Assembly: GCA_023053545.1 (NCBI GenBank)
Contig: JAKZAN010000005.1
Span: 744,001-808,000, forward strand
Length of the DNA: 64,000 nucleotides
Origin: Lepidurus packardi
Lineage: Eukaryota > Arthropoda > Branchiopoda > Notostraca > Triopsidae
Reading direction: 5' to 3'
The notes beneath the pieces are model-generated. The model had not been told where the DNA came from and ran no database searches. It worked only from the letters and a program-made list of their open reading frames with translations. Within the stretch, counting starts at the first letter, position 1. The number at the start of each line of letters is the position of its first letter. Below, piece after piece: positions 19,700 through 49,084 of the stretch. A program made the position numbers and the translations under genes.

Positions 19700-19922
19700 T
19701 GTAAAATAGTAAATGAATTAAAATAATCACTCCCGTGAGAGCGTACAATTGAAACTAATACAGCTAACCCCAATGCTGCTTCACAAACCATGAGAAGTAA
19801 ATATACTAAAATAAAATAAAATTCATAACCCAATAAAACAAATATGTTAGATATAAAAAAAAAATTGCCCTAATATTATACTTTCTAGTCGTATTAAAAC
19901 AGCCAAGAGATGTCGATGATAA
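19693..19922 (-). pseudogene. nad4L: NUMT: nad4L C-terminal part
   Basis: The minus strand reads HRHLLAVL, then [19 protein letters not shown], ending at TAA 19695-19693. This is NADH dehydrogenase subunit 4L. The gene is split after the Tyr codon by LINE-F. Its first 26 codons lie at 28907-28985, and the frame matches exactly when one copy of the 5-bp duplication is removed. Confidence 0.88.
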
Positions 19923-20503
19923 GCCTGATTATTGCCTGTGGTTAATTTGTTACAATTCTCATAAGTGCTGGTCTGCCTGTGGTTGTTTTGCTGACGGGGC
20001 CTGCCTATGGAGGGGGCGGTCCCCGAACAAACTCGAAAGAAAACAATGGAAAACGTTTGCTCTCAAGCGCATGAACAGGCTACCAAAACTACAGAAATTG
20101 TTCGTTCCCAAACGCAAGACAGGCCAACATGGTTCGATGTATCACCTGTCAAAACACGTTTGTAAAAGATCATCCTGCTGCGAAGAACTGCAAGAGTTGT
20201 CGCCAGCAAAAAACGGCCGTATCGAGCGGTGAACCTCTGCGAAAACGTTCGGAGTCAGATCCATCATTACCTCTTCAATTGCAGGAATTTCAAAAGGGTC
20301 TAAAAGAAAGAGTCAGCTGTCTGGAAGCTAAGGTCGATACCTTACTTCCCCTAGCGGAATTAGTCCCAATTCTGATAGACGAAATTCGACTTCTGAGAGA
20401 GGAGCTGGCCAAACGTCCTCAAGCTCCTCATGAGCAAGTGACCAGGCACTGGCCTAATCAAGCACCAGCCACCCCTCAATTAGGCAAGGATAATCAAGAT
20501 GAT

Positions 20504-20668
20504 TGTAACATCGTGCTAAGCAGCCAACAGAGGGCAGCACGGGAATGAGGATGGTAAATACACGGACATAACAGAGAGCAGGAGTGTGATAAAAAGCTCC
20601 CCGATTATCGTCGAGTAAACGACCCATCGGTGTGTTAAATTATTATATTTGAGTAAACAAATATTACA
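20504..20668 (+). repeat. Gypsy-M 5' LTR
   Basis: TGTAACATCGTGC to AAATATTACA, 165 bp; TG/CA ends with the inverted pair TGTAA/TTACA. Confidence 0.97.
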
Positions 20669-20685
20669 TTGGCGACGAGGATAAA
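20669..20685 (+). promoter_or_regulatory. Gypsy-M primer-binding site
   Basis: TTGGCGACGAGGATAAA follows the LTR directly; TGGCGACGAGGAT is a recurrent Gypsy PBS form. Confidence 0.65.
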
Positions 20686-20731
20686 CTGGGAAGGCCATCA
20701 GTCAGGTAAATAACGAGGACTAAATCTGGAC

Positions 20732-21976
20732 ATGGCATTGGCATTACCTCTTTTCGAAAAATTCCACGTGGGGAGTGATCCGCAGACGGCTGGAGTTAGG
20801 TGGCCTAAATGGGTGGCTGAGTTCGAAAACCTAATGATTGCCCTAGATATTGTTCCAGAACACATTGGGAACGTAGCAGAGAAATTCGAGGCCGATAGAA
20901 GACGATTAGCTCTCATGCGCTATTACGCAGGTGCAGAGGTTGCAGCCATATGCGACACAACTCCTGGAAATCCTGAAGAAAAGAATACATATACCAAAAT
21001 GAAGCCATTATTACATGCGTATTTCGTCCCGAAGAAGAATATAGAATTGGAGGTCTACAAGTTCCGTCAGACTTCCCAAGAAGAAGGAGAAAGCATGGAC
21101 GCCTTCGCTACCAGACTGCGCGAGCACGCTGCCCGATGTGAATTCATGGATCAAGACCAACAGATCAAGTTGCAGATCATTTAAGGATGCCGATCAAGCA
21201 CTTTTCGCAAAGTATGTCTTCGTGATCAGTTGTCGTTATCCAAAATGCTAGAACACGCAAGATCGTCAGAGGCAGCAACAAAGTACGATGATAGTCTCCG
21301 CAAATCATCAACCAACTCAACGCAAGCTCTCAAGACACAAGTACCATCAAGACAAGAAAAGGCTCGAACAACGAGCAGGGGCACCTGTAGAAACTGTGGC
21401 GAACCGTGGCCACATAGTAGAACGACACCGTGCAAGATGCAAGGAAAATGTCGCAATTGTGGAAGGAGCTGGCCACACCCACCCGACAAACCATGCCCCG
21501 CAAAAGGAAGAGTCTGCTCTAGCTGTGGGAAAGTAAACCATTTCGCACAACAATGCCGGAAGAAAACTCAGCAAAGCGGACGCAAAGAAGTCAAGCAGCT
21601 AACTGAAGAGCGGTCATCAAGTGACGAATCCGTATTAGCTGTAAGAAACAAGCCAGACCCAAGACCAACTGCAGAAATCAAGCTATGTGGGTCAAGTATC
21701 AAGATGATGATCGATACCGGTTCGACGTGCAACCTAGTCGACACTGGAGTATATAGCAAGCTGGCCCATGCCCCGCCCCTCACGCCAAACCGAAGCACAG
21801 TTAGGGCATACGGCAGTAAAGAAATTGGAATTGAAGGATCTTTCACAGCGCGATTGAAGTCGAAACACGCCTCAATCCAAACAACAGTATTTGTAAGCTC
21901 CGATCATCAGGCAGACTGTCTACTAGGATACGAGACAGCAAAAGCGCTGGGTTTAGTCCACATCTCCACGCAGTAA
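20732..21976 (+). pseudogene. gag: Gypsy-M gag and protease
   Basis: ATG 20732 (MALALPLFEKFHVGS) begins a capsid-like gag with the motif QEEGESMDAFATRLR. TAA at 21182-21184 interrupts it; the frame then continues unchanged to 21976. Nucleocapsid: two CX2CGXXWPH repeats (CRNCGEPWPH, CRNCGRSWPH) followed by a classical knuckle CSSCGKVNHFAQQC (about 21514). Protease: MMIDTGSTCNLV at about 21703. A single nonsense change disables an otherwise clean gag-protease. The frame change to pol lies at 21976-21979. Confidence 0.88.
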
Positions 21977-21978
21977 CA

Positions 21979-24792
21979 ATGGATCCCGGATATCAGTACC
22001 TGAGAGACATGTTTCCCCAACTGTTCCAAGGTATTGGAAAACTCCGGAATCACCAAGTCAAACTACACATAGACCCTTCGGTACCTGCGGTCACTAGAAA
22101 GCACCGACGTGTGGGTTTTCACCTTCGCAAAGCGATGTCGGAGGAAATCGACCGACTTCATCTAAAAGAAGACATCATCGAGCAAGTCCTAGACGGTCCG
22201 ACACCATGGGTTTCGCCGTGTATTATGGTGCCGAAACCAAAGCAGCCTGGAAAGTTTAGAGTATGTGTCGATATGCGCGCACCGAACTTGGCAATTTTAA
22301 GGACCTAGCATGTAATCCCAACTGTAGAGGACCTAATCGTTGACCTGAACGGCGCACGGTTCTTTACAAAGCTGGATATGAACCAGGGATATCATCAGCT
22401 CGAATTACATCCGCAATCACGCTACATCACGACTTTCGCTACGCACCAGGGCCTGTTCAGGTATAAAAGGCTCAACTTTGGAGTCAATTGCGCGTCGGAA
22501 ATTTTTGACGACATCATCCGTCAAATCGTAAATGGCATCTCAGGAGTAGTCAACCGTAGTGACGACATCCTCGTCACTGGGAAAACCAAGAACGAGCATG
22601 ACAGAAACCTTAAAGAAGTGCTCCAACGTCTCGCCAAAAAACAGCTTACACTAAATTTTGACAAATGTGAGTTTGGGAAGACGAGCATCACATTTTATGG
22701 TTTGAACTTTAGCGCCGATGGTCTGGCACCTGACAAGATAAAAGTAAAGGCAATCGACGAAGCGGAACAACCACAAAGCCCGGAAGAAGTTGCAAGCTTT
22801 CTTGGAATGATAACGTTCTCTAATAGATTCATTCCAGACGCAGCCACAGTTGCGGAACCATTGCGCAAGCTCACACGGCAAGGCTCTACATGGACGTGGG
22901 ACACTCAAGAAGAAGGCGCATTCCAAGAGTTGAAAAGACGTCTACGAGAAGCTACGACACTAGCCTATTATAACGTGGACAAGCAAACCACCATAATCGT
23001 AGATGCTAGTCCAAAGGGCCTAGGAGCCATATTAGTACAGGTATCCAAAGATGGACACGAAACTCCAATTGCTTTTGCTAGCCGCCGATTAACAGACATC
23101 GAGTCACGCTACTCTCAAACGGAACGAGAAGCGTTAGCCATCACGTGGGCCATCCTCCATTTTCATTTATATGTGGCAGGAAAAGGTTTCAAGATCATAA
23201 CCGATCACAAGCCACTAGTTCCCATCTTCAATAAAGCTCTAATACAAGCACCCGCACGAATCGAGAGATGGCTGTTGAAATTACAGCAGTATGACTTCGT
23301 TGTAGAGTACCGCCCCGGGAAAAATAACCCGGCAGATTTTATGTCCAGGCATCCAACCAAGGAATCAAAAGTCTCATCACGCGAAGAAATACTGGCGGAA
23401 AACTACATTGACTCTGTATGTCTCCGCTCGCAACCGAAGCATGTCTCTCTCCACGAAATTGCCGCTGCTACAGCCAACGACCAGCCGCTTCAGATTATAA
23501 TTAAAAGCCTAAAAAGGATTAAACGCGGTGGAGCAACTGAGCTAAACGAAGCTGAAGAAAAACGACTCAAAGTACTGAAGCAGTGCGCAGACCAGATGAC
23601 GATTCTAAACTCCAAGGACGGTGAATTCCTCCTTAAAGGGACCAAGATTGTTATTCCCGACATCCTGACGCACCGAATCGTAGACATCGCGCACCAAAGT
23701 CATCTGGGTATGGTGAAAACGAAAGGCTTACTCCGAGAAAAAGTCTGGTTCCCAAATTTGGATCAACTGGTTGAAAACAAAATCAGCAATTGTATTCCAT
23801 GTCAAGCTTGCACGAACACGAATCAACCAGAACCCCTCCTAATGTCGAGCTTACCTGCCAAACCGTGGACCGAAGTTAGCGCTGATTTCGCAGAGATGCC
23901 GAACGGGGATTACCTTCTAGTTGTTTATGACGACTATTCACGCTACCCCGTTGTCAGTAAGGTCACAACGACGTCAACAGCAGCCGTGACACCGAAGCTA
24001 GAAGAAATATTTGCGTTATTCGGCATACCAGAAGTTGTCAAGACCGATAACGGTCCGCCGTTCAACGGTGCAGAATTTGCTCAGTTTGCGATAAGCATGA
24101 ATTTCCATCATCGCAAAGTCACGCCACTTTGGCCCCAGGCAAATGGCGGAGTTGAAAGATTTATGAGAACCTTAAAAAAGGCTCTTCGCTGTGCAGTTGC
24201 CGAGGGAGCCAACTGGCGACATCGAATCTCAAACTTCCTATTAGACTACCGTGCCTCACCTCATCCTAGCTCAGGTGCATCGCCCGGTTCCATGCTATTC
24301 GGAAGACCAATGCGAACAAGGCTTCCACAAGTCCGCGCAGCTCTATCCGAGGATGAAATCCGCAACAAGGACACGGCCTACAAGAACAAGATAAAGAACT
24401 ACGCTGACAAGAAGTCGAAGCATCGCGTCTTCGAAGTGGGCGATACCGTTCTATTAAGACGCGACAGAATCTCGAACAAACTGCAGACTCCGTATGAGAC
24501 ACGTCCATTCATGGTCACCAAGATAAACGGTACTATGGTCACTGCGGTGAACGAACATCGTTGCGTCACCAGGAACATAAGCTTCTTCCGGAAAATAAGT
24601 GGTGGCATTCCTGCAGGTGAACCAAATCCAAATGAAGAGATGGAAGAGGAACCTAGTACCACCATTTTTGAAACTCAACCTCCGCGCGCGGATATACCAA
24701 CTGAAGACCAACCTCCAGACGCCGGTAATGTCAGACGAAGCGGTCGAGAGCATCACCGACCTCGAAGATACGAAGATTTCGTGTTATATTAA
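21979..24792 (+). pseudogene. pol: Gypsy-M pol with one internal stop
   Basis: RT begins at ATG 21979. TAG at 22306-22308 is the only internal stop; the same frame continues from 22309 to 24792. FTKLDMNQGYHQ is clear. The catalytic YXDD position reads RSDDILVTG (about 22555), with Ser for Leu. RNase H: IIVDASPKGLG, REALAI, TDHKPLV, NPADFMSRH. Integrase: HX-H...CIPCQAC finger (about 23683-23810), then D,D,E (SADFAEMP, KTDNGPPF, NGGVERFM). The C-terminal tail is acidic and Pro-rich. Nearly complete but not translatable as it stands. Confidence 0.9.
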
Positions 24793-24916
24793 TAATCCTC
24801 ACTTTTGTATTGTTTAAATAATTTAAGTTCTGGTCATCCGCTTAAAGAAAGTGTGAATCACAATTTTGATCTGTTTGTATGATGGTCTCAAGCGGAAACC
24901 AGTCACAATTATTCTA

Positions 24917-24919
<3 letters not shown>

Positions 24920-24951
<32 letters not shown>
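24920..24951 (+). other. A32 run before the Gypsy-M 3' LTR
   Basis: Thirty-two A followed by TAGCAT and then the LTR at 24958. A conventional G-rich polypurine tract is not seen, so the A-run may serve that role or may be an expansion after insertion. Confidence 0.7.
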
Positions 24952-24953
<2 letters not shown>

Positions 24954-24957
24954 GCAT

Positions 24958-25122
24958 TGTAACATCGTGCTAAGCAGCCAACAGAGGGCAGCACGGGAAT
25001 GAGGATGGTAAATACACGGACATAACAGAGAGCAGGAGTGTGATAAAAAGCTCCCCGATTATCGTCGAGTAAACGACCCATCGGTGTGTTAAATTATTAT
25101 ATTTGAGTAAACAAATATTACA
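24958..25122 (+). repeat. Gypsy-M 3' LTR
   Basis: 165 bp, identical by eye to 20504-20668; followed by the ATGAT duplication. Confidence 0.97.
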
Positions 25123-25968
25123 ATGATTATGGAGAGTTGGAAACGCTCTTTATACAGCAAGAAGATGTTGAAAAGAGAGCCAGCAAGGTTCCCCGTAAGG
25201 GTTTACTTAAAATGATTGACGACGACTTCAGGGCTGCTAAGATCCCAAATCCTGTACTGGCACACCAAACACAAAGCGGGAATATCAAACTCGTCTTTAA
25301 GAGTCACGACGAAAAGCTTGAAGCGGAACCGTTACTCAAGAAAGTAGTCTTACCCCAAACTTGGCCCGGTAAGAATGATCTCAAGAAAATTGAACTTAAG
25401 CGTAGTAGTACACCAACTACCTAGGGACCAGAATTACCAAGAAATTTGTCAACATCTGTCCGAAAAAAATTCAAGTCTGAACGTCGTATTCAATGCAGAA
25501 AAAGTTAAATGGCTAAATCCCAGCAGTAAGAAGGCCTATGGGTCTCTATTGGTCTCGTGCGACTGCATTGAGAAGAAGGCAAATCTGCTGCGGGCTGGAA
25601 TGCTCTTTGCCTTTAATAGGCGAATTAAAGTAGAAGACAACAACCCCCCTCAATATCATCAATGCTTTCACTGTCAAGCATACGGCCACGTAGCCACGGT
25701 ATGCCGAGATAAAGAACCAACTTGTGGAAAATGTGCCCAAAAACATGACACAAGGAAATGCTTGGAGGATACCAAAAAATGTGTGAATTGCAAAGGTGAA
25801 CATTTTGCTTTTGACGCAAGTTGTCCTATTAGACAGAAAGAGAAGAAGGAGAGAGAACAAAAATCGCACAATGCGCGCTCAGGCGCTGGTAACTATCCTA
25901 GCTTATCCACGAACCAGCGTGTAGAAAAATCGTCGAACGCGGTTGCACCTATCTCTCAGCAGGATTGA

Positions 25969-28853
25969 CATAACTCCAGGGCAAAGCCTTCCAGATTAAA
26001 GACCAAGAACCGGGATCTAAAATGTATGTTCTTTAACTCTGATTCTCTTTTAAACAAAATTGAAGAAACGAGACTACTTGCACAATCTGAAGAGCCAGAC
26101 ATTATAGCAATTGTGGAGGTTAAACCTAAAAACTGCAGGTTCAAACCTACAGCTGCTGAATTATCAATCTGTGGATACAACACGCTTGACATCAATTTGG
26201 ATAGTGACCTTGGGCGTGGCGTTATTTGTTATAGTAAAAACAATTTGAGAGTGTACCCCGTACCCCAACGTGAATCTGTGCCCCAAGAAATGTTATGGTT
26301 ACGAATCAGTCATTTAAATGGAATGAATATGATCTTCGGTGTGTGTTATAGAAGTCCTTACAGCACCGCAGAAAATGATAAGGAGATTTGCGCTGAAATT
26401 TCGGAAATGACAGCTTCCCCAAATCAAAATATAGTCATAGTGGGTGACTTCAATCTCCCTAAAGCTAATTGGCAACACCGTTATACACACTCGCAACAAA
26501 TTAATCCTGAAAACGTATTTCTTAATTGTTTCAACAGTAACTTCCTTGACCAATTAATTGAAGAACCCACTCGAGTCCGTGGAACAAACAAACCGAGCTT
26601 GCTCGATCTTCTACTTGTAAGTAACCCCGAGGTTGTGACATATGTTGAAGTCCAGTCGCCAATCGGAAAATCGGATCATGCTGTAATAACTTTTATCCTG
26701 CAAACTAACCGACTGGAAAAGAAGAATATACAATGGCCGAACTACTATAAAGGCAACTACCAGGAGATAAGAAGAGTCCTTTCCAAAGTCAACTGGGATC
26801 AAGTATTTCAAGACTTAGAATCCATGGATGATCTGTACAGCAAGTTCCTGCGCACAGTAAAATTTGTGGAATATTGCTTCATACCGCCTAGACTACGTAG
26901 TAGTAGAGCAGCAGTTTCTAGGGAAACATTGAAATTAATAGCCGAAAAAAGGGATGCCTGGAATGCCTTCAAATCAAACAAAGATGACTCTTCATTGGAG
27001 TTAAATTACCGACGCTTCCGCAATAAAGTGCGCAAAGCCACCAGACAGGAAGTAAACAGAAGAGAAAGTCTACTGGCAAAAAATTTAAAAGACAATCCCA
27101 AAATCTTCTGGAAACATGTCAATGCGAAAAGAAAGAACGGAACCATTATACCTCCATTACTAGATGAAACCACGAGACTTACTGTTTCTGAACCGATTGA
27201 AAAGGAAAATGTACTAAACCGACACTTCTCTGTTGTATTTACGCGCGAAATAGATATAACAGAGGTTGATTCTTGTGTCTCGGAAGATCCTTTTCCCCCA
27301 CTCAATATTTGCGCGTCAATGGTTTTAGAAAAACTTAACAGGTTGGATACATCCAAGTCCCCTGGCCCGGACATGTTACACCCTAAAGTCCTCAAGGAAG
27401 CTGCTGCTGTCCTAGTCAAACCGCTTACTTTCATTTATCGAAAATCCATTTCCTCTGGCCAACTCCCGACAATATGGAATAGTGCTGTTGTTACCCCAAT
27501 CTTTAAATCCGGGAAACGTGACTTACCCTCGAATTATGGGCCTATTAGTTTAACTTGTGTAACGTGCAAAATCCTCGAATCAATTATTGCTGACCACATT
27601 TTGACCGAATTTAGACACAGAAAAATATTATCAGATAAACAGTTCGCATTTTTACCTGGACGCTCCGCTGAAAGTCAACTTTTACTTGCTGTCGAGAACT
27701 GGAAAAAGAATGCGGATAAGGGGCTTCAAACTGATGTTATATATCTGGACCTTAAAAAGGCGTTCGACAAAGTACCCCATGGTAGACTTATTCAAAAATT
27801 GGTAGACTACGGTCTCGGTCCTAGTACCTCACCCACCCTGACTAAATGGATTAAAAGTTTCTTAACGAATCGGACGCAATCAGTTTGTGTTGAAGGTGAA
27901 GTCAGTGACTTAGTGATAGATGTTCTAAGCGGAGTTCCCCAGGGCTCGGTTCTGGGTCCGTTACTATTTAACATATATATTTATGACCTAACAGACAAAA
28001 TTGAGTCGACAGTCTTTCTTTACGCGGATGATACCAAAATTAGTAACGTAATTAACTGCCCGGAGGATATGATTAAGCTCCAAGATGACATTAAAAGTAT
28101 TGAGCTTTGGATGGAGAAATGGCTGATGGAATTGAACATCCCAAAGTGTCACCAACTGACGATTGGAAATGAATCTGTCACAAGTAGTTATGTCCTGGGT
28201 GGCGAAGTAATTACCAAGACCGATTGTGAACGGGATCTTGGAGTCCTGATTGACACAAAACTTAATTTTCACCAACATTATGCGAGCATTGCGGCTAAAG
28301 CAACGAGAGTGGCTGGACTAATTAGACGAAACTTCACCTGTGTGGATAAAACAATGTTGTCCATGCTGTATAAAACGCTCGTTAGACCTATTCTTGAGTA
28401 CGGCCACTGTGTAACGCGCCCGTTCTTCAACAGGGACCTAGAAGCCCTAGAAAAAGTTCAAAGGAGAATAACCAAATTTCCTGGAAATCTTCGTCACCTC
28501 TCCTATACAGAAAGACTCAAAGCCCTGAACCTGCCAACTCTGGCATATAGGTTTCTACGGGGTGACCTGATAGAAGCGTTTAAATTGTGTCACGCCTATT
28601 ATGAAAATGTGTCCGCCGAACAATATTGTGTTTCAACCAAAGCAATTGTCGTGGCCATATCCTAAAACTCAAGACAGAACGATTCTTCAAAGATGTAGGC
28701 CGCTGGACCTTCCAAAACCGAATCGTAGATGAATGGAATAGCCTACCAGAAAAAGTGATCAAATTCTCCTCCACACAGACATTTAAAAAATCACTAGATG
28801 AGCATTTTGGCTCAAAAATGTTTGACCCGTTACAATTTCGTAGAGATAAATAG
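25969..28853 (+). pseudogene. LINE-F ORF2, CR1/L2-type endonuclease-RT
   Basis: The frame opens directly after the ORF1 TGA and is the same frame as ORF1; the first ATG in good context is 26026. Endonuclease: IVEVK, GVCYRSP, VGDFNLPKANW (about 26440), SLLDLLLV, GKSDHAVITF (SDH intact, about 26668). RT: SKSPGPDMLHP, VIYLDLKKAFDKVPH (about 27740), SGVPQGSVLGPLLFN (about 27930), LYADDTKIS (YADD intact, about 28018). The CR1/L2 tail RGHILKLK...NRIVDEWNSLPE ends at 28853, one frameshift (about 28640) away from the rest. Otherwise open for about 880 codons. Confidence 0.9.
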
Positions 28854-28901
28854 TTACAAAGAGGCTTTATAAAGCCTTATATGTTGCAATAAATAATAAT
28901 A
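28854..28901 (+). other. LINE-F 3' hairpin and (AAT)n tail
   Basis: Perfect 16-nt palindrome AGGCTTTATAAAGCCT (28862-28877), then an ATAAT-rich tail. Hairpin plus short tandem repeat is the usual CR1/L2 end, unlike the poly(A) tails of the other LINEs here. Confidence 0.8.
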
Positions 28902-28906
28902 ATAAG

Positions 28907-28985
28907 AAATAAATACCACCAAACTTCCTAATATGATAATCGATCCTAAATATAACCATATTGGTAAAATAAAACTATTTAACAT
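28907..28985 (-). pseudogene. nad4L: NUMT: nad4L N-terminal part
   Basis: The minus strand from ATG 28985 reads MLNSFILPMWLYLGS..LGSLVVFIS, then meets LINE-F. It continues as YHRHLLAVL at 19922 and downwards. Confidence 0.85.
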
Positions 28986-29135: not shown

Positions 29136-29638
29136 ATGTTAATATACAATCTACTATCAATTTTTTTTATTAATAAACTCCTTTTTATTTATAACACTCA
29201 CTCACCTTTATCCATAGGGCTAAGCTTAATAGTACAAAGACTTTTAATTTTTTTAATATCAGGGAGATTATTTTTAAATTATTCATTTTCATATAACCTT
29301 TTTTAATTTTTTTAGGGGGTTTACTAGTGCTATTTATTTATATTTCTAGATTAGCATCAAACGAATTATTTAAGTTTAATCCTTATATATTCATTATAAT
29401 TGCCATGTCTAGAATATTAATAATAATGATAATCTATTTAAATAGAGAAAATTCATGAAATAATCTATTAATTCATAAATGAATAATCTTAATAAACTAT
29501 AAATCTCTCCTTACTAAAATCTATAGACCAATATTATTTCAAATAGCACTATTTCTCATCTTCTATCTTCTATTATGTTTATTAGTTGTAGTTACTATTA
29601 CTAAATTTGATAGAAGACCTCTCCGTTTACAAAAATAA
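29136..29638 (+). pseudogene. nad6: NUMT: nad6
   Basis: NADH dehydrogenase subunit 6. ATG 29136 opens, reading MLMYNLLS with the mitochondrial code and SGSLFLNYSFSY further on. A one-base indel in a T-run near 29302 shifts the frame, which then runs to TAA 29636-29638. The stop overlaps the cob ATG by one base. It is nearly full length; its 3' part also lies in the inverted copy at 50286-50569. Confidence 0.88.
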
Positions 29639-30766
29639 TGCTAACTATACGAAAATCCCATCCTTTAATTAAAATCATTAATAACGCACTAATTGACTTA
29701 CCAGCGCCATCAAATTTCAACATTTGATGAAATTTTGGCTCTCTACTAGGTTTATGCTTAATAATTCAAATCCTCACAGCAATACACTTGCAATACACTT
29801 CTCTGCTCATTTAGATATGGCTTTCTCTAGTGTAGCTCACATTTGTCGCGATGTTAACTATGGCTGACTTTTACGAACTTTACACGCAAATGGGGCCTCT
29901 TTCTTCTTTATTTGTTTATATCTTCATATTGGACGTAGTATATACTATGGATCTTATTTATTCTCTCTGAAATGATTTGTGAGAATTATACTTTTATTAT
30001 TAGTCATAGGAACCGCTTCTATGGGCTATGTATTACCATGAGGACAAATATCTTTTTGGGGGCAACAGTAATTACAAATTTAGTATCAGCCATTCCTTAT
30101 GTAGGAAGCAGTATTGTCCAGTGAATTTGAGGTGGATTTGCAGTTGACAACCCCGCATTAACTCGATTTTTACAATCCACTTTTTACTCCCTTTCACCAT
30201 TTCAGGAGTTACTGTAATTCACTTATTATTTTTGCATCAAACAGGATCAAACAACCCTATTGGAGTAGCCAGAAATACAGATGAAATCCTATTTCATCCT
30301 TATTTCAGAGTCAAAGATGTAGTAGGGTTTATAATTATACTAATAGCTTTAGTAATTCTTAGTTTATTAGAACCATATCTATTGGGGGATCCAGACAACT
30401 TCACCCCAGCAAACCCCTTAGTTACTCCATGCCATATTCAACCTGAATGATACTTTTTTTTTGCGTACACCATTCTTCGATCTATACCTAATAAATTGGG
30501 GGGGGGTTGTTGCTTTATTAATATCCATCCTAATTTTAAGCACACTACCTATTTTCCATTTTAGAAAATTTCGGGGGTTAGAATTTTACCCTATTAATCA
30601 AATCTATTTTTGGCTATTAGTAACCACTGTAATCTCATTAACTTGAATTGGCGCACGACCTGTAGAAGAACCCTTTATTTTAATATTACAAATCTTAACT
30701 GTAATATACTTCTCTTACTACTTTGTTAAACCCCTATTACTCAAATTATGAGATAATCTAATTTAA
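29638..30766 (+). pseudogene. cob: NUMT: cob (left-arm copy)
   Basis: Cytochrome b of complex III. ATG 29638 ([12 protein letters not shown]) to TAA 30764-30766. [22 protein letters not shown], the NPIGVA segment and the PLLLKLWDNLI end are readable. Damage includes a small duplication/deletion at AATACACTTGCAATACACTT (about 29780), frameshifts near 30050 and 30190, and a G-run at 30499-30508. Confidence 0.92.
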
Positions 30767-30836
30767 AATTATTTGGCTGAAAGGAAACCACTTGTCTTGA
30801 AAACAAAATACAAAGGTTCAAATCCTTTAATAATTT
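30766..30836 (+). tRNA. trnS2: NUMT copy of mitochondrial trnS2 (UGA)
   Basis: Perfect acceptor AAATTAT/ATAATTT; anticodon TGA in the loop TCTTGAAA. It follows cob as expected. Confidence 0.85.
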
Positions 30837-30856
30837 ATATTTCTTAACACAATGAA

Positions 30857-30925
30857 TTAAAATAACATTATATACATCGAAAAAAATAACAAATAATTTA
30901 AAGAAATAGGGAGAAATGACTTTCA
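30857..30925 (-). pseudogene. nad1: NUMT: nad1 last 22 codons
   Basis: The minus strand from the TGA(Trp) codon at 30925 reads WKSFLPISLNYLLFF..., stopping at TAA 30859-30857. This is the nad1 C-terminus. The rest of nad1 is replaced by LINE-G sequence. Confidence 0.78.
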
Positions 30926-32321
30926 CCACATAAGGGCCTATTACTTGCCATGTTTTTTTTTAGCACGAGAGCTTGTATGTGGTCCGCACCAGCTGCCTTG
31001 TTGGGAGGTAGACCGTCGAGGATAGTAGTGATCTCTTCCCTGGAGGAAGCTTCCTCGTAGGGAGACAGACTTGCTCTGTTGGTAGTGCGGCGGAAACGAG
31101 ATGAGTGATGGATATCATGGGATGAATCTACAGGTTTGCCATTCAACAAGTGTTTTGCTACATAGTTGAGCTTTGATGTAGGGTCGGGGAAAGGTTTCCC
31201 ATGATCTTGACAGAGATGCTGTAGCCGGTTGTTGTTATGCGAACGTAGGTGACGGTCGAAGTTCCACAGAATTCTGTTACTCGGATCTTCCATTTGTGCT
31301 GCCCAATATCGTCCTTTCAACTCACGAGTTTTCGCCCGATAGATATTTCGCTTCCTTTTCCATTCATCTTCCCTTTGTAAGTATCTTATGGCACGATAAA
31401 GTCGAAGAGCGGCTGCGGATTCTTTTCGAAGGTGATATAGTTCGCTATTCCACCAGGGATTTTTCCGTTTGTCGTCTGACCTGGTTGGTATGTGCTTATT
31501 CATAGCCTCGCGGATGATAGTAGTGAGCGAGTTGACTGCAATATCAATTTCCTGTGGGTTTTGTGGATTCGATATCATTGAGTGCATCTTAATTAAGCTA
31601 GACGACAGGTGGGAATAAAGGTCTTTCCAGTTTGCTTTTGCGTATGACCAAGAGGTTTTCGGTACGCGGGTTATAAGATTTTTGAAAGACAGGACTATTG
31701 CCTTATTAACTGATTCATTATAATAAGAATCTTCGCTAAGAATGGACCAATTAACTTGCGTGCGTAAGGTAGGTTATATCCACGTTAAGTCTATAGTGGA
31801 CTTGTGACCACGTTCGTTATGAAACGTGGGTTTGTTCCAGTTGTTTAGCAAGACCAAGTCTTGTTCAGATGCAAAATCGTACAGTTGTGATCCAGCGGTG
31901 TCGGGAGTCCTATCTTCCGTAGCCAGTGATGGGCGTTGAAATCACCAGTGATTACAATACGATCCATGTGTCCATGCTTTTTCTGTATGTCAGAGAGAAG
32001 TGATGTGGTTTTGGTGGTGTGTCTTCTGTATAATGCGATTACCAGTATGGGGAGGGAGCCTGTGATGGAGAGCTTGAGAGCCACATACAACTGAGATATC
32101 TCCAAAACGTAGAAAGGACTGTTCGTCTTGCGAAGGAGAAGCACACCTTCGTATTCGAGTGCGGGGCTAATTAGTTCAAAGCCCCCCATCCTTGGGTATG
32201 GCAAGTTTTTCGGAGGTTCCATGACTGCTATTGTGTCAATATTCTTGATTGAGGCCTCCCATATGAGTTCCGTAAGTTGATTGTAATTCTTCCTTACATT
32301 TTGTACCCGAAGCTCCGTCAT
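30926..32321 (-). pseudogene. LINE-G ORF2 (left copy), truncated
   Basis: Starts MTELRVQNVRKNYNQ at 32321. Endonuclease motifs MEPP and VITGDFNAHHWL are present. A one-base loss after HHWL shifts the frame (stop at 31845), and a further in-frame stop follows STIDLTWI. The SDH motif reads SVN, so catalysis would be lost anyway. RT begins (PPNKAAGADHIQALVLKK) and is cut by the nad1 junction. One extra A in an A-run near 30955 distinguishes it from the right copy. Confidence 0.85.
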
Positions 32322-33748
32322 TCTGGGCGTCTTTTGGGGGTCTTTGAGCTGCGGTTAACTGTTTTCCATTCGTCTGCTCTCCGCTGTTCGGTGGGATTGA
32401 CTGCTGGTTTTTCAGCCTCTTTCTTTCTAATGGGGCAAGATTGGTCAAACGCGAAGTGGTCCCCTTTACAGTTGACGCATTTGCATTTGTTCCCAGTGCA
32501 GGTCCTGGTGTCGTGTTCTTCTCCGCATTTTGTGCAACTAGGTTGTTTACTGCGACAGTTTGCAGACATGTGGCCGTAAGCTTGGCATCTATAACATTGA
32601 AGGACGTTCGAGCGCCTGATTTCTTCCACTTGGATGATTCTGTTGTAAGCCAATAGAACCCCATCCTCTTTGATCTTCTGATTCTCTTCCGCCGTGGAGC
32701 ACGTATACATGATGGATCCAAAGGCTTTGGTGCTGGTTGGATTAAGCCACTTTGCCTTGTCTGCGAAGAACTTTATTTCCATGTCCGAATTCATGTCTGA
32801 AAGATGCGCACAGATTTGTTCTAAAGATTCATCTTTGGGAAGTTGATGGAAGATTAGACGAAGGTCGGGTTGTCTGGTGATCACTTTGACTGGGGCCATG
32901 CATTTCAGGGATGCAGCGTCGAGGATCGGTTCTGCCTTAGCTTTTTCTTCCTTGCTTTTGAAGGTCAGGATTAGTCTATTCGATTTCGTTTTCCTCGCGA
33001 AAATCGGCCTCGGGGCGTTGGGGCAAGTTTGTTGGAGGTCTCGTTCAATGGTTTGTAGCAGCTCCTTATTAGGGAGGAACATACCCCTTTTCTCCAAGTC
33101 CAATTGCTCCAGAACCATAGTTTCATCATGGACTGTTGAGGGCAGAATTTTTGTTGGGTTGGTGGTGGAGGTTGCGGGGGTTTCATCTCGAGGTTTGCTT
33201 AGCGTCTTCGACAATCTAACCGCTTGGGACCACGATTTGTGCTGATCTACTCCCCCAGATGGAGTCATGTGTGACTTCACCTCATCCCTGAGTCTCTGAA
33301 TCTCGTTGGCGAGTGAAGTGATCAGCTCTCGCAAGGAAATCTTTTCTACGCTTTCTTGCTTTAGTTGGGTTTCAAGGGACGAGATTTGGAGCACCATTTG
33401 ATCTTGGGTTCTCTTCATTGCAAGGAGTATGGTAGACGCATGGTCAGGGCGAAGTTGAGGCTCTTCCAGAGAATTTGCACGTTTTCTAATAGGCATTTCT
33501 TTTGGGTCGTTCGAGGGGGAGGCGGATCTTTTGGTTTGAGCATGGGCAAGAGAACTTCTCTTGTTACGGCAAGGTTTGCAGTTTTTCGCTGCAGGTACAT
33601 CTCTTTCAAAAAGAATGGCACAGGTGGCACAATAGATTTGGTTGGTCTGGGTACGGGCGAGTTCACTGTTGACCTCGGATTCTGTGGGACCTTGGCCTCC
33701 CTCGCAGCTGGGCGAGTTCATCGGCGAACATGACGCAATAGAGTCCAT
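32318..33748 (-). CDS. LINE-G ORF1 (left copy), intact
   Basis: 476 codons from MDSIASCSPMNSPS. N-terminal C4 finger CX2CX13CX2C at residues 40-60 (CATC...CKPC), a basic linker, a Leu-rich coiled coil (about 115-160), then the HQLPKD...KWLNPTSTKAFGS domain and three knuckles from residue 385 (CYRCQAYGHMSANC, CTKCGEEHDTRTC, CVNCKGDHFAFDQSC). The stop overlaps the ORF2 start as ATGA. It differs from the right copy by a few residues (for example VRLSK against VRMSK). The start is chosen at this Met because an upstream stop (TTTTTTAG) is present only in this arm. Confidence 0.85.
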   Translation of the reverse strand: MDSIASCSPMNSPSCEGGQGPTESEVNSELARTQTNQIYCATCAILFERDVPAAKNCKPCRNKRSSLAHAQTKRSASPSNDPKEMPIRKRANSLEEPQLRPDHASTILLAMKRTQDQMVLQISSLETQLKQESVEKISLRELITSLANEIQRLRDEVKSHMTPSGGVDQHKSWSQAVRLSKTLSKPRDETPATSTTNPTKILPSTVHDETMVLEQLDLEKRGMFLPNKELLQTIERDLQQTCPNAPRPIFARKTKSNRLILTFKSKEEKAKAEPILDAASLKCMAPVKVITRQPDLRLIFHQLPKDESLEQICAHLSDMNSDMEIKFFADKAKWLNPTSTKAFGSIMYTCSTAEENQKIKEDGVLLAYNRIIQVEEIRRSNVLQCYRCQAYGHMSANCRSKQPSCTKCGEEHDTRTCTGNKCKCVNCKGDHFAFDQSCPIRKKEAEKPAVNPTEQRRADEWKTVNRSSKTPKRRPE

Positions 33749-33945
33749 GAACGGCCCCCCGAATGTTGATTTCTTTTCTCCCCTTGTGAAAAACGGTGTG
33801 AAAAACGGGTTCAAACGAAACGAAAGCTTAACGAACGGATAACTGAGGATTTGCTAAAAAACTGGGTGCAAATACGGTAACAAACTTGTACGAAAAACTT
33901 CCCAAAATAGGTTCGGAAACGAGAGCACAGAAACTAACGTCCCCC

Positions 33946-34108
33946 TTATTTGTTGTCGCAGCAAGTGTCTCTAATAAATAATTAAATACAAATAATACTA
34001 TGAAAACATTAAAAAAATAAAAATAATAAACTTTACTATGTTTTCGAATGTGGGTTATTAAATAACCCTACTAAATATATTTCCATAAATAATGTATTTT
34101 TAAACTTA
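33946..34108. other. NUMT: AT-rich control-region-like stretch
   Basis: Non-coding, A/T-rich sequence between the LINE-G 5' end and trnI, the position of the mitochondrial control region in the ancestral order. The exact LINE boundary is uncertain by about 20 bp. Confidence 0.55.
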
Positions 34109-34173
34109 AATTGAGTGCCTGATCAAAAGGATTACCTTGATAGGGTAAATAATGTAATTTATTACCTCAATTA
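34109..34173 (+). tRNA. trnI: NUMT copy of mitochondrial trnI (GAU)
   Basis: Perfect acceptor AATTGAG/CTCAATT and anticodon stem TTACC/GGTAA around TTGATAG. Confidence 0.88.
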
Positions 34174-34207
34174 TTTGTGATAGAATTGCACTAACGCCTA
34201 GAAAATC
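34174..34207 (-). pseudogene. trnQ: NUMT: trnQ remnant
   Basis: Follows trnI. The minus strand starts within an anticodon-loop-like GATTTT at the LTR edge, and the other half of the tRNA is missing on the far side of the LTR. Identified mainly by position. Confidence 0.4.
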
Positions 34208-34408
34208 TGTAGTGACCTGACTCCCTGGTCAGGTTGGCCCCGCCCCGACAAGGCGGATATAAACAAACCAGGTACAATACAGGAGTGATAACCCTCAATC
34301 AAGAGCATCATCCTATCAAATATCTCAAGCTAAAATAACCATCCAAGTAACCAAACAGTGTCATCACCAACGATACCACAAGAATCAAAACCTCTTATGC
34401 TCTCTACA
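34208..34408 (+). repeat. Gypsy-Q LTR, left-arm copy
   Basis: 201 bp, TGTAGTGACC to CTCTCTACA, indistinguishable by eye from 36606-36806. Flanks AAATC and TTAAC do not form a target duplication. It contains TATAAA near 34259. Confidence 0.9.
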
Positions 34409-34414
34409 TTAACA

Positions 34415-34478
34415 AATAAAGTAAGCTAAAATTAAGCTAATGGGCTCATACCTCACTGATAGAACTACTCTCTTTACT
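34415..34478 (+). tRNA. trnM: NUMT copy of mitochondrial trnM (CAU), copy 1
   Basis: Anticodon loop CTCATAC; acceptor AATAAAG/CTTTACT with one mismatch shared with the right-arm copy but not with copy 2. Confidence 0.85.
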
Positions 34479-34479
34479 A

Positions 34480-34846
34480 ATTATAATTAATCCTCGATTT
34501 CCTGTTTTTTTCTTTATTATTACTAAGATTAATAATTGTAATATCTTCAAATTCATGATTCTCTGCTTGAATCGGGTTCGAGCTCAATCTAATAAGTTTT
34601 ATCCCGATTATAATAACCAAAAACAATCAACAATTAACAGAAGCAGGATTAAAATATTTTTTAATTCAAGCATTAGCCTCCGTTATTTTTATATTTAGAG
34701 CTTTATTCAGCCTTTTTTGTTTTATATACCCATCCTCTTTTATTATCATTATCTTAATAATAAGATTGTTATTAAAAATAGGAGCCTCCCCCTTTCATGC
34801 CTGGTTTCCGGTAGTATCTGAAGGACTTTCTTGAAATAAATTTGCA
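34480..34846 (+). pseudogene. nad2: NUMT: nad2 5' part, copy 1
   Basis: Starts ATT (IMINPRFPVFF). SSNSWFSAWIGFELNLMSF and KMGASPFHAWFPVVSEGLSW are readable in mitochondrial code, with small indels. It ends exactly where Gypsy-Q RNase H sequence begins. Confidence 0.9.
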
Positions 34847-44089: not shown

Positions 44090-45443
44090 AAAATCAATTG
44101 CATAAGAGTAGACCTAAAATAGAAAAGAAGGATAAAAAATAGTGAAGTTTGTTAAGCCGTAGGTTAGTTTTTTATTTCATGTAATTTTTCTATATAGTAG
44201 ATTTCTGTTAAATGAAATTCGTAAATAATAATAAAGAGTAAATAAAGTGGAGGTAATTAAAATTTTTAATCTAAAAATTATTATTGAAGTACTAATATTT
44301 TTAATGATAAGTCATTTTGGTATAAATCCTAAAAAAGGGGGTAGTCCTCCAAGAGAGAGTATATTTAAGAATAGAAGTAATTTAATCATAGGGTTTAAAG
44401 AGTGACTGGAGTTAATTTGAATTAAAGAGATTAATTGGTATAAACTAAATAATTGGGTTACAGAGAATAGAATAATCACATAGACAAAAAAGTAGATTCA
44501 TATAACTGAATTATTAATTAAGGAGGCAAGTAATAATCAACCTATGTGATTAATTGATGAGAATGCTATTGTAGAACGTAATAGGTTTAAATTACCCCCC
44601 CCCCCCCAACCCCCCTACAACTCCTCTTAATATAGCTGCTAATAAAATAAATTTGTTATAAGTTAGCGATCTTGTTATTAATAACAGTGGGTTGATTTTT
44701 TGGATTGTGGCCAAAATTAAAAATTTATTTCAAGAAAGTCCTTCAGATACTACCGGAAACCAGGCATGAAAGGGGGAGGCTCCTATTTTTAATAACAATC
44801 TTATTATTAAGATAATGATAATAAAAGAGGATGGGTATATAAAACAAAAAAGGCTGAATAAAGCTCTAAATATAAAAATAACGGAGGCTAATGCTTGAAT
44901 TAAAAAATATTTTAATCCTGCTTCTGTTAATTGTTGATTGTTTTTGGTTATTATAATCGGGATAAAACTTATTAGATTGAGCTCGAACCCGATTCAAGCA
45001 GAGAATCATGAATTTGAAGATATTAAAATTATTAATCTTAGTAATGTTATGGGAGTAAATGCACGTTTGACACGAAGAACGAGGGGGAAAATACGTACTG
45101 TATTCAACACCTCAACTGTCGGTGTTACAACAATGACAGTGTAAATGATAATTAACAATGGGGGGTTGATTTCACGGGCACGCCTATCTCTTTTGCTCAC
45201 TTGACAAAACCTCTGTTCTCTAAGACCACTCTTTCTCTTCTCCTCCCTTGGATTCACCACTCCCGAACTCAACTCACTTTTCTACCTCGGGGGTTGACAT
45301 CGTACAAACAAGGTAATACAAAACAAAACAAGGGAAAACTGGTGCCCGTTTATCCCAAGCCTAGCGCTTACTAGTGCACATGTACCGGGGTACATAACAG
45401 TAATAATAAAGAAAAAAACAGGAAATCGAGGATTAATTATAAT
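44090..45443 (-). pseudogene. nad2: NUMT: nad2, near complete, split by a solo LTR
   Basis: Minus-strand NADH dehydrogenase subunit 2 from just after trnM (45443) to trnW. The 5' part equals the left-arm copies. It is the only copy that continues past LATIQKINP through LLAAMLSGVV to the C-terminus. A C-run lies at 44597-44611. A 355-bp LTR interrupts it at 45045-45399. Confidence 0.88.
45045..45399. repeat. Solo LTR (355 bp) with empty site in the other arm
   Basis: Ends are the perfect inverted pair TGTTATG/CATAACA, flanked by GTAA (45041-45044 and 45400-45403). The left arm has the uninterrupted sequence with a single GTAA, so this inserted after the inverted duplication formed or was lost from the other arm. 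No element interior is present. Family unknown; a 4-bp duplication suits Gypsy. GTAAATG and TACATAACA occur within it. Confidence 0.88.
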
Positions 45444-45444
45444 T

Positions 45445-45508
45445 AGTAAAGAGAGTAGTTCTATCAGTGAGGTATGAGCCCATTAGCTTAATTTTAGCTT
45501 ACTTTATT
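45445..45508 (-). tRNA. trnM: NUMT copy of mitochondrial trnM (right arm)
   Basis: Inverted counterpart of 34415-34478, sharing its acceptor mismatch. Confidence 0.85.
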
Positions 45509-45514
45509 TGTTAA

Positions 45515-45715
45515 TGTAGAGAGCATAAGAGGTTTTGATTCTTGTGGTATCGTTGGTGATGACACTGTTTGGTTACTTGGATGGTTATTTTAGCTTGAGA
45601 TATTTGATAGGATGATGCTCTTGATTGAGGGTTATCACTCCTGTATTGTACCTGGTTTGTTTATATCCGCCTTGTCGGGGCGGGGCCAACCTGACCAGGG
45701 AGTCAGGTCACTACA
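45515..45715 (-). repeat. Gypsy-Q LTR, right-arm copy
   Basis: 201 bp, reverse complement of 34208-34408. It lies between trnM and the trnQ remnant, with no element interior on either side. Confidence 0.92.
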
Positions 45716-45749
45716 GATTTTCTAGGCGTTAGTGCAATTCTATCACAAA
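45716..45749 (+). pseudogene. trnQ: NUMT: trnQ remnant (right arm)
   Basis: Inverted counterpart of 34174-34207. Confidence 0.38.
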
Positions 45750-45814
45750 TAATTGAGGTAATAAATTACATTATTTACCCTATCAAGGTAATCCTTTTGA
45801 TCAGGCACTCAATT
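45750..45814 (-). tRNA. trnI: NUMT copy of mitochondrial trnI (right arm)
   Basis: Inverted counterpart of 34109-34173; all stems intact. Confidence 0.88.
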
Positions 45815-45977
45815 TAAGTTTAAAAATACATTATTTATGGAAATATATTTAGTAGGGTTATTTAATAACCCACATTCGAAAACATAGTAAAGTTTATTAT
45901 TTTTATTTTTTTAATGTTTTCATAGTATTATTTGTATTTAATTATTTATTAGAGACACTTGCTGCGACAACAAATAA
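45815..45977. other. NUMT: AT-rich control-region-like stretch (right arm)
   Basis: Inverted counterpart of 33946-34108; non-coding. Confidence 0.55.
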
Positions 45978-46173
45978 GGGGGACGTTAGTTTCTGTGCTC
46001 TCGTTTCCGAACCTATTTTGGGAAGTTTTTCGTACAAGTTTGTTACCGTATTTGCACCCAGTTTTGAGCAAATCCTCAGTTATCCGTTCGTTAAGCTTTC
46101 GTTTCGTTTGAACCCGTTTTTCACACCGTTTTTCACAAGGGGAGAAAAGAAATCAACATTCGGGGGGCCGTTC

Positions 46174-47604
46174 ATGGACTCTATTGCGTCATGTTCGCCG
46201 ATGAACTCGCCCAGCTGCGAGGGAGGCCAAGGTCCCACAGAATCCGAGGTCAACAGTGAACTCGCCCGTACCCAGACCAACCAAATCTATTGTGCCACCT
46301 GTGCCATTCTTTTTGAAAGAGATGTACCTGCAGCGAAAAACTGCAAACCTTGCCGTAACAAGAGAAGTTCTCTTGCCCATGCTCAAACCAAAAGATCCGC
46401 CTCCCCCTCGAACGACCCAAAAGAAATGCCTATTAGAAAACGTGCAAATTCTCTGGAAGAGCCTCAACTTCGCCCTGACCATGCGTCTACCATACTCCTT
46501 GCAATGAAGAGAACCCAAGATCAAATGGTGCTCCAAATCTCGTCCCTTGAAACCCAACTAAAGCAAGAAAGCGTAGAAAAGATTTCCTTGCGAGAGCTGA
46601 TCACTTCACTCGCCAACGAGATTCAGAGACTCAGGGATGAGGTGAAGTCACACATGACTCCATCTGGGGGAGTAGATCAGCACAAATCGTGGTCCCAAGC
46701 GGTTAGAATGTCGAAGACGCTAAGCAAACCTCGAGATGAAACCCCCGCAACCTCCACCACCAACCCAACAAAAATTCTGCCCTCAACAGTCCATGATGAA
46801 ACTATGGTTCTGGAGCAATTGGACTTGGAGAAAAGGGGTATGTTCCTCCCTAATAAGGAGCTGCTACAAACCATTGAACGAGACCTCCGACAAACTTGCC
46901 CCAACGCCCCGAGGCCGATTTTCGCGAGGAAAACGAAATCGAATAGACTAATCCTGACCTTCAAAAGCAAGGAAGAAAAAGCTAAGGCAGAACCGATCCT
47001 CGACGCTGCATCCCTGAAATGCATGGCCCCAGTCAAAGTGATCACCAGACAACCCGACCTTCGTCTAATCTTCCATCAACTTCCCAAAGATGAATCTTTA
47101 GAACAAATCTGTGCGCATCTTTCAGACATGAATTCGGACATGGAAATAAAGTTCTTCGCAGACAAGGCAAAGTGGCTTAATCCAACCAGCACCAAAGCCT
47201 TTGGATCCATCATGTATACGTGCTCCACGGCGGAAGAGAATCAGAAGATCAAAGAGGATGGGGTTCTATTGGCTTACAACAGAATCATCCAAGTGGAAGA
47301 AATCAGGCGCTCGAACGTCCTTCAATGTTATAGATGCCAAGCTTACGGCCACATGTCTGCAAACTGTCGCAGTAAACAACCTAGTTGCACAAAATGCGGA
47401 GAAGAACACGACACCAGGACCTGCACTGGGAACAAATGCAAATGCGTCAACTGTAAAGGGGACCACTTCGCGTTTGACCAATCTTGCCCCATTAGAAAGA
47501 AAGAGGCTGAAAAACCAGCAGTCAATCCCACCGAACAGCGGAGAGCAGACGAATGGAAAACAGTTAACCGCAACTCAAAGACCCCCAAAAGACGCCCAGA
47601 ATGA
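46174..47604 (+). CDS. LINE-G ORF1 (right copy), intact
   Basis: 476 codons, C4 finger at residues 40-60, coiled coil, and three zinc knuckles from residue 385 (47326 on). In this arm the frame is open upstream to 46018, where the left arm has a stop, so the downstream Met is the safer start. ATGA at 47601-47604 is both its stop and the ORF2 start. Nucleic-acid-binding protein of the LINE particle; it may be expressed, but there is no complete ORF2 beside it. Confidence 0.87.
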   Translation: MDSIASCSPMNSPSCEGGQGPTESEVNSELARTQTNQIYCATCAILFERDVPAAKNCKPCRNKRSSLAHAQTKRSASPSNDPKEMPIRKRANSLEEPQLRPDHASTILLAMKRTQDQMVLQISSLETQLKQESVEKISLRELITSLANEIQRLRDEVKSHMTPSGGVDQHKSWSQAVRMSKTLSKPRDETPATSTTNPTKILPSTVHDETMVLEQLDLEKRGMFLPNKELLQTIERDLRQTCPNAPRPIFARKTKSNRLILTFKSKEEKAKAEPILDAASLKCMAPVKVITRQPDLRLIFHQLPKDESLEQICAHLSDMNSDMEIKFFADKAKWLNPTSTKAFGSIMYTCSTAEENQKIKEDGVLLAYNRIIQVEEIRRSNVLQCYRCQAYGHMSANCRSKQPSCTKCGEEHDTRTCTGNKCKCVNCKGDHFAFDQSCPIRKKEAEKPAVNPTEQRRADEWKTVNRNSKTPKRRPE

Positions 47605-48995
47605 CGGAGCTTCGGGTACAAAATGTAAGGAAGAATTACAATCAACTTACGGAACTCATATGGGAGGCCTCAATCAAGAATATTGACACAATAGCAGTCA
47701 TGGAACCTCCGAGAAACTTGCCATACCCAAGGATGGGGGGCTTTGAACTAATTAGCCCCGCACTCGAATACGAAGGTGTGCTTCTCCTTCGCAAGACGAA
47801 CAGTCCTTTCTACGTTTTGGAGATATCTCAGTTGTATGTGGCTCTCAAGCTCTCCATCACAGGCTCCCTCCCCATACTGGTAATCGCATTATACAGAAGA
47901 CACACCACCAAAACCACATCACTTCTCTCTGACATACAGAATAAGCATGGACACATGGATCGTATTGTAATCACTGGTGATTTCAACGCCCATCACTGGC
48001 TACGGAAGATAGGACTCCCGACACCGCTGGATCACAACTGTACGATTTTGCTTCTGAACAAGACTTGGTCTTGCTAAACAACTGGAACAAACCCACGTTT
48101 CATAACGAACGTGGTCACAAGTCCACTATAGACTTAACGTGGATATAACCTACCTTACGCACGCAAGTTAATTGGTCCATTCTTAGCGAAGATTCTTATT
48201 ATAATGAATCAGTTAATAAGGCAATAGTCCTGTCTTTCAAAAATCTTATAACCCGCGTACCGAAAACCTCTTGGTCATACGCAAAAGCAAACTGGAAAGA
48301 CCTTTATTCCCACCTGTCGTCTAGCTTAATTAAGATGCACTCAATGATATCGAATCCACAAAACCCACAGGAAATTGATATTGCAGTCAACTCGCTCACT
48401 ACTATCATCCGCGAGGCTATGAATAAGCACATACCAACCAGGTCAGACGACAAACGGAAAAATCCCTGGTGGAATCGCGAACTATATCACCTTCGAAAAG
48501 AATCCGCAGCCGCTCTTCGACTTTATCGTGCCATAAGATACTTACAAAGGGAAGATGAATGGAAAAGGAAGCGAAATATCTATCGGGCGAAAACTCGTGA
48601 GTTGAAAGGACGATATTGGGCAGCACAAATGGAAGATCCGAGTAACAGAATTCTGTGGAACTTCGACCGTCACCTACGTTCGCATAACAACAACCGGCTA
48701 CAGCATCTCTGTCAAGATCATGGGAAACCTTTCCCCGACCCTACATCAAAGCTCAACTATGTAGCAAAACACTTGTTGAATGGCAAACCTGTAGATTCAT
48801 CCCATGATATCCATCACTCATCTCGTTTCCGCCGCACTACCAACAGAGCAAGTCTGTCTCCCTACGAGGAAGCTTCCTCCAGGGAAGAGATCACTACTAT
48901 CCTCGACGGTCTACCTCCCAACAAGGCAGCTGGTGCGGACCACATACAAGCTCTCGTGCTAAAAAAAACATGGCAAGTAATAGGCCCTTATGTGG
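47601..48995 (+). pseudogene. LINE-G ORF2 (right copy), truncated
   Basis: Same lesions as the left copy: frame loss after GDFNAHHWL (stop at 48077), in-frame stop after LTWI (about 48147) and SVN in place of SDH (about 48209). From 48335 the frame is open through FPDPTSKLNYVAKHLL and PPNKAAGADHIQALVLKKTW, then runs into nad1. The frame accidentally stays open across the junction to 49180. Confidence 0.86.
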
Positions 48996-49064
48996 TGAAA
49001 GTCATTTCTCCCTATTTCTTTAAATTATTTGTTATTTTTTTCGATGTATATAATGTTATTTTAA
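48996..49064 (+). pseudogene. nad1: NUMT: nad1 last 22 codons (right arm)
   Basis: Inverted counterpart of 30857-30925 (WKSFLPISLNYLLFF). Confidence 0.78.
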
Positions 49065-49084
49065 TTCATTGTGTTAAGAAATAT

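Follow-up and report, generated by a model that had tools for sequence, protein, structure and literature searches.

A CR1/L2-like LINE family of Lepidurus packardi whose ORF1 was probably captured from a resident I-like LINE

The DNA considered here is a 64,000-nucleotide stretch of the genome of the notostracan Lepidurus packardi (assembly GCA_023053545.1, contig JAKZAN010000005.1; G000:C4:744001-808000, within a 13.5-Mb contig), called the window below. It contains mitochondrial-derived DNA into which a long interspersed nuclear element (LINE) has inserted, and this LINE belongs to a family, X, whose two open reading frames (ORFs) have different affinities. Its ORF1 resembles those of resident LINEs that carry an I/R1-like ORF2 (donor-type LINEs), whereas its own ORF2 encodes a reverse transcriptase (RT) of a CR1/L2-like type. 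Quite probably, ORF1 was captured from a resident I-like LINE by a LINE of CR1/L2 type, and the hybrid then multiplied.

The features of the window copy are collected in Table 1. As a preliminary description of the locus had reported, ATAAG duplications stand at both ends of the insertion; their visible length, 5 bp, is a lower bound, since the 3' copy merges with the (AAT)n tail, and the window copy is the only X copy in which such a target-site duplication (about 5 bp) was read. When the flanks are joined across the empty site, the frame named nad4L in that description is open, and cytochrome b is recognised nearby at 29614-30561. The copy is decayed: ORF1 is interrupted by an in-frame stop, and ORF2 is frameshifted close to its end. 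Both ORFs were found where they had been placed, except that the proposed ORF1 start, 20046, is the second methionine; in the open X copies ORF1 comprises 445 amino acids, counted from the equivalent of an earlier ATG.

Table 1. Features of the family X copy in the window, with the stop/start overlaps of donor-type loci
Feature	Position	Strand	Remarks
Whole insertion: 5'-shortened copy of the family X LINE, interrupted by a long terminal repeat (LTR) element	19924..28906	+	Host is mitochondrial-derived DNA
ATAAG target-site duplication, 5' copy	19919..19923	.	5 bp, visible minimum
ATAAG target-site duplication, 3' copy	28902..28906	.	Shares letters with the (AAT)n tail
Family X LINE, 5' part: end of 5' untranslated region (UTR) and first part of ORF1	19931..20503	+	ATG at 20007
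LTR retrotransposon inside ORF1, presumably Gypsy-type	20504..25122	+	LTRs 20504-20668 and 24958-25122
ATGAT duplication around the LTR element	20499-20503, 25123-25127		Read from the sequence
Family X LINE, remaining ORF1 through tail	25123..28906	+	From comparison with other copies
ORF1, second part: RRM1, RRM2, three CCHC knuckles	25123..25968	+	TGA at 25966-25968
Interval expected to contain the exchange breakpoint, about 135 nt	25882..26016	+	Coordinates derived from residue numbers
In-frame spacer, 57 nt, without ATG	25969..26025	+	From ORF1 TGA to first ORF2 ATG
ORF2, endonuclease and RVT_1 RT, CR1/L2-like type	26026..28853	+	Frameshifted near its end here
3' UTR hairpin	28861..28878	+	z -1.81; 12 of 200 shuffles fold equally well; weak alone
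(AAT)n tail	28888..28903	+
Stop/start overlaps in donor-type loci	L033 1500, L034 1550, L036 1544, L037 1218, L039 799, L040 1469

The joined ORF1 and ORF2 are not confined to this site. When the junction (25900-26050) was used as a probe against the genome (108,557,554 bases in 344 contigs), as had been proposed as a check, 24 matches with 97-100% identity were obtained on 15 contigs, many of them with differing flanks. The other 23 loci were compared in stretches of 8 kb (one of 7.5 kb). Copies there align to 19931-20503 plus 25123-28908 as a single contiguous stretch, and the LTR element is missing from all 23. Sixteen are unbroken LINEs running from 19931 to 28897-28912 without 20504-25122, four (L010, L020, L025, L026) are 5' truncated, and three are broken (L021 at 27635; L028 and L029 at 26908). 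Their counterparts of window positions 19931..20503 are 97.9-99.5% identical to it (one 91-bp piece, 100%), and the longer copies reach further 5' than the window copy, starting (CAGACGTG)n ATTCCGTG... The (AAT)n tail that had been described is present here, and AAT units occur at the 20 recognisable 3' ends of the 23 other copies; otherwise, L017 continues into A's, and L018 and L022 are short.

By the test used, ORF1 is open in 14 of these 23 copies, ORF2 in 11, and both in seven. Between open copies, pN/pS is 0.284 for ORF1 (91 pairs; mean divergence 0.68%) and 0.258 for ORF2 (55 pairs; 0.45%). No stop occurs among the variant codons, as is expected when open copies are chosen. Purifying selection acts on both ORFs between copies; thus, both were selected together until recently. 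Family X is young and has spread recently.

The X copies are not all separate insertions, since spaced repeats on three contigs represent segmental duplication: on C103 the copies lie about 14 kb apart, and L014-L016 share a 5' flank and an ORF1 defect; on C288 they lie 12 kb apart, and L028 and L029 have a common interruption, a further element (about 3920-6890 in L028) that has an open frame of 624 codons; on C128, 5'-shortened ORF2 copies repeat. Positions 57014-64000 of the window consist of an AT-rich tandem satellite with a unit of about 20 bases like TTAATTCATGAATTACTGAC, and repeats like it border X copies L013, L019 and L027. About a dozen of 20 X 3' flanks start in AATTTC-type or TTACGGACTGAATTAA-type repeats. 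X may therefore favour, or accumulate in, satellites.

The ORF1 protein contains a coiled coil, two predicted RRM folds and three CCHC zinc knuckles. The three knuckles (CX2CX4HX4C, CX2CX3HX4C and CX2CX3HX6C) and the C4 finger noted earlier can both be read in the X protein (P0001); a profile of ten ORF1s matches HIV-1 nucleocapsid (E 1.7e-07), and apart from C368 the knuckle ligands are invariant in all ten rows. An RRM upstream of CCHC knuckles, three in number, characterizes Type I ORF1s, and X has both traits. The candidate Type IC, which has an N-terminal PHD, was rejected: the N-terminal finger is made of four cysteines alone (C45, C48, C62, C65), and no PHD was matched in Pfam scans of P0001 (E up to 5) or of the ten ORF1s (E up to 1).

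A genome search with ORF1 gave 118 matches from the best 95 of 458 candidates. Twenty-five rows represent the 24 X copies, and the other 93 have at most 57% identity. Ten donor-type loci were read from this search, together with one beside an X copy (L021). Over residues 172-410, X is 41-54% identical to the ORF1s of resident LINEs with an I/R1-like ORF2. In up to 239 columns it shares 54% with L032 and 53% with L039, which share 53% with each other, and L036 is more distant, at 38-43% to all nine others.

The second ORF is of a different kind. X ORF2 contains Exo_endo_phos_2, Exo_endo_phos and RVT_1 without any RNase H match (E up to 5), and an N-terminal endonuclease with RT and without RNase H fits the CR1/L2 trait. 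L2-type LINEs end in a short-repeat tail instead of poly(A), following a hairpin; X has such a tail, and its hairpin is weak. In an RT tree of 78 rows (support as SH-aLRT), X joins the public protein P0005 (100), which is 52% identical over its length, and groups (99) with 39 of 40 public ORF2s, which were chosen from the best 120 of X's own 183 matches and none of which carries a clade name. Nine donor families form one group (100), with L036 firmly inside; membership of X in this group was rejected, as X lies outside it. The nearest neighbours of the donor group (81) are four public proteins, two of which (P0126, P0130) carry RNase H. No RNase H was matched in the three donor ORF2s scanned (L032, L035, L036; E up to 0.01), so that "I/R1-like" denotes an affinity rather than membership of the I clade. 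The best match of donor ORF2 is LINE-1 ORF2p, and the TRAS1 endonuclease is matched as well; X ORF2 has no TRAS1 match at E 0.01. We take GVPQGSPLS and FADDLLL to mark the I/R1-like type and GVPQGSVLGP the CR1/L2-like type.

Ten of the 11 donor-type loci carry a whole or partial I-like ORF2, either that of L032 or one 41-61% identical to it; in the eleventh, L038, no RT lies in the fetched stretch, which stops at the contig end. By BLASTP, X ORF2 is 23-31% identical to donor ORF2s. The earlier claim that the window's other LINEs carry a different RT is borne out by the three ORFs with an RT that were compared, which are 46-70%, 37-47% and 36-48% identical to I-like families vs 29%, 24% and 34% to X. 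The poly(A) ascribed to those LINEs was seen in three of eight donor-type 3' stretches (L032, L037, L041), and the other five end without a visible tail. When the CR1/L2-like protein P0044 was used to query the genome, 41 of 48 scored rows were X, at 32-42%, and the next seven listed were donor-type, at 25-27%; all seven, chosen by RT rather than by ORF1, lie directly behind an ORF1 match. Among the matches listed for this single query, X appears to be the sole CR1/L2-type family in the genome.

It is the comparison of the two proteins that brings out the conflict. RT identity is 49-66% among eight donors and 27-32% between X and each of them, and all eight X-donor pairs fall 23-28 points under the ORF1/RT line fitted to the 28 donor pairs (residual sd, 3.6). 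RT is better conserved than ORF1 in 27 of those 28. Together with the repeated junction and selection on both ORFs, this conflict supports an exchange of ORF1 between LINE groups, as the preliminary description had suggested. Since X falls within the spread of donor ORF1s, ORF1 most likely moved from I-like to CR1/L2, a direction that unrooted trees neither prove nor exclude. No parent ending at the junction with high identity was present among the candidates scored, which suggests that the exchange is old.

The point of exchange can be narrowed. Of the 445 ORF1 residues, the last that resembles donors is number 417, or 423 at the outermost; similarity to CR1/L2 restarts at LKC, just ahead of the first ORF2 ATG. 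As described earlier, the two ORFs share a frame and are parted by one TGA; this TGA and the spacer are the same in every one of the 23 copies elsewhere, and the window copy has one silent base change. After the TGA the ORF1 frame stays open for 961 codons (974 in one case), the first ATG being codon 20. At the donor-type junctions, stop and start overlap in six of nine cases (UGAUG in L033; UAAUG in L036; AUGA in L034, L037, L039 and L040), while in L021 and L032 an in-frame stop and one codon precede the ATG, and in L035 the ATG lies ten bases beyond the stop. Ribosomes might arrive at X ORF2 either through reinitiation 57 nt downstream or through readthrough of the UGA, the data favouring neither.

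These results lead to the following model. A CR1/L2-type LINE lacking a working ORF1 would have come to lie downstream of an I-like ORF1, either by 5'-truncated insertion between a resident ORF1 and ORF2 or by template switching, and the CR1/L2 RT would then have copied transcripts that began at the 5' end of the resident element and reached the tail of the CR1/L2 element. ORF1p, with its coiled coil, two RRMs and knuckles, probably coats and escorts the RNA, and ORF2p would prime at the (AAT)n tail. Cross-insertion, template switching and DNA recombination could each have given rise to the first hybrid. A bolder version appears doubtful: that an isolated CR1/L2-type LINE acquired its ORF1 from unrelated resident I-like LINEs across a superfamily border, that it gained a single-UGA junction with partial ORF1-ORF2 readthrough fusion, and that the hybrid outlived the genome's other CR1/L2 families. 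Partial readthrough is proposed because LKC, conserved in CR1/L2, precedes the first AUG.

Several points weigh against the capture of an I-like ORF1 by X. The ORF1 trees have no outgroup and no strong fork around X, so that its nesting among donor ORF1s rests on identities; of the separate trees proposed as a check, that of RT gave a clear split and those of ORF1 did not. The donor-type loci were selected by ORF1, and no donor 5' UTR was recognised, all 20 matches being X. The RT tree joins L035 and L036 (95), a pairing that ORF1 weakly rejects (AU p 0.043); this possibly reflects further ORF1 exchange among I-like families or an artefact of the long L036 branch. The names CR1/L2-like and I/R1-like rest partly on characteristic motifs and on unlabelled public proteins chosen by similarity, and otherwise on RNase H in P0126 and P0130 (at the fork of 81) and the TRAS1 match of donor ORF2. 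As the proteins compared included none labelled CR1, L2, Jockey or I, a donor partner outside the Jockey superfamily is likely rather than established.

Other explanations of family X were also weighed. At this place alone, a CR1/L2 element might have inserted into an older LINE or become joined to it by template switching, which would make the unit a nested insertion or a one-off chimera. The unit does contain one nested insertion, the LTR element; however, the recurrence of the junction with different flanks rejects a one-off chimera for the present element, the unbroken copies elsewhere reject nested insertion, and further full copies under selection in both ORFs already refute a single event, which leaves this explanation with next to no credibility. 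If instead there was no exchange, I-like and CR1/L2-like LINEs would have inherited a slowly evolving ORF1 from a shared ancestor; ORF1s of Type I (RRM plus CCHC) are described from several clades in the available text of PMC4120745. This is very improbable, given that X exceeds in ORF1 (41-54%) what it shares in RT, whereas nearly all donor pairs have the better conserved RT.

A transfer in reverse, I-like LINEs having taken ORF1 from a CR1/L2 lineage of which X is a remnant, gains something from the unrooted ORF1 trees and from mosquito L2 and CR1 elements whose ORF1s have two RRMs and three CCHC knuckles (as given in the same source). It is nonetheless unlikely, since this ORF1 is old in I-like LINEs, where many diverged families have RTs of one group, and since X is a single family whose ORF1 is closer to several donors than that of L036 is. 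Somewhat easier to entertain, though still the lesser prospect, is an exchange in another host, the finished hybrid having entered by horizontal transfer. X is very young, no other CR1/L2-type family appears among the matches listed for P0044, and no non-X ORF1 among those listed in the ORF1 search exceeds 57%. Against this, X ORF1 falls among resident ORF1s, which makes a resident donor simpler, and no near-identical foreign copy was found in the protein searches and two hitless contig scans that bear on the question.

The exchange of ORF1 is itself already known. Metcalfe and Casane (2014; PMC4120745) reported that ORF1 had passed between CR1 and L2 lineages of mosquitoes, and in the available text they suggest that a 5'-truncated LINE inserted between ORF1 and ORF2. 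X resembles mosquito CR1 subgroup 3 and L2 subgroup 2 in the transfer of a whole ORF1 with two RRMs and three CCHC knuckles within one host group, and by domain count it is nearer subtype IB of the Jockey lineage (two RRMs, three CCHC). However, the mosquito exchange, as described there, took place within the Jockey superfamily and involved an ORF1 with an N-terminal PHD, whereas the partner of X looks I/R1-like and its finger has four cysteines only. Esterase ORF1s are scattered over CR1, RTEX and Penelope, a pattern read, like that of X, as exchange by recombination or cross-insertion, or else as loss and gain; they are, however, another ORF1 type, and the available part of that report does not show donor families together within a single genome (PMC3905857). 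Zebrafish ZfL2-1 / CR1-1_DR is, like X, of CR1/L2 type, and its target duplications peak near 5 bp (PMC4245944, available text; compare ATAAG), but it has an esterase ORF1 (PMC3905857, likewise). Among R1-clade LINEs of the silkworm, to which TRAS1, with its endonuclease matched by donor ORF2, also belongs, the UAAUG coupling of SART1 parallels the donor-type overlaps (PMC2881922, available text). X differs from SART1 in having no overlap, with UGA, 57 nt and AUG in the same frame.

What looks to be added here is a partner seemingly outside the Jockey superfamily and a donor group in the same genome. Earlier exchange was inferred from element collections within one superfamily (available text of PMC4120745), while one genome here holds donor-type and hybrid families, open young copies and a breakpoint interval of about 135 nt. 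It can now be tested whether a LINE RT can function with the ORF1p of a different group, and whether LINE survival is aided by a packaging protein taken from elsewhere. The several kinds of stop-start overlap in one genome form a natural series for the study of coupled translation, and the unsuitability of ORF1 for LINE classification is again illustrated.

The element within ORF1 of the window copy is a separate insertion into that copy. Its domain order is RT (RVT_1), RNase H and integrase, from which we take it to be Gypsy-type. Its LTRs (TG...CA) lie inside a 167-bp repeat (20502-20668 and 24956-25122); the pair is identical over this match, inside the older LINE copy, and the insertion was therefore recent. 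Elsewhere in the window, an inverted repeat pair of 5.2 kb (29356-34524 and 45399-50568; 99.6% identical) carries mitochondrial-derived DNA and, shared by both arms, a LINE ORF1 (32321-33853, minus strand; 45856-47601, plus strand).

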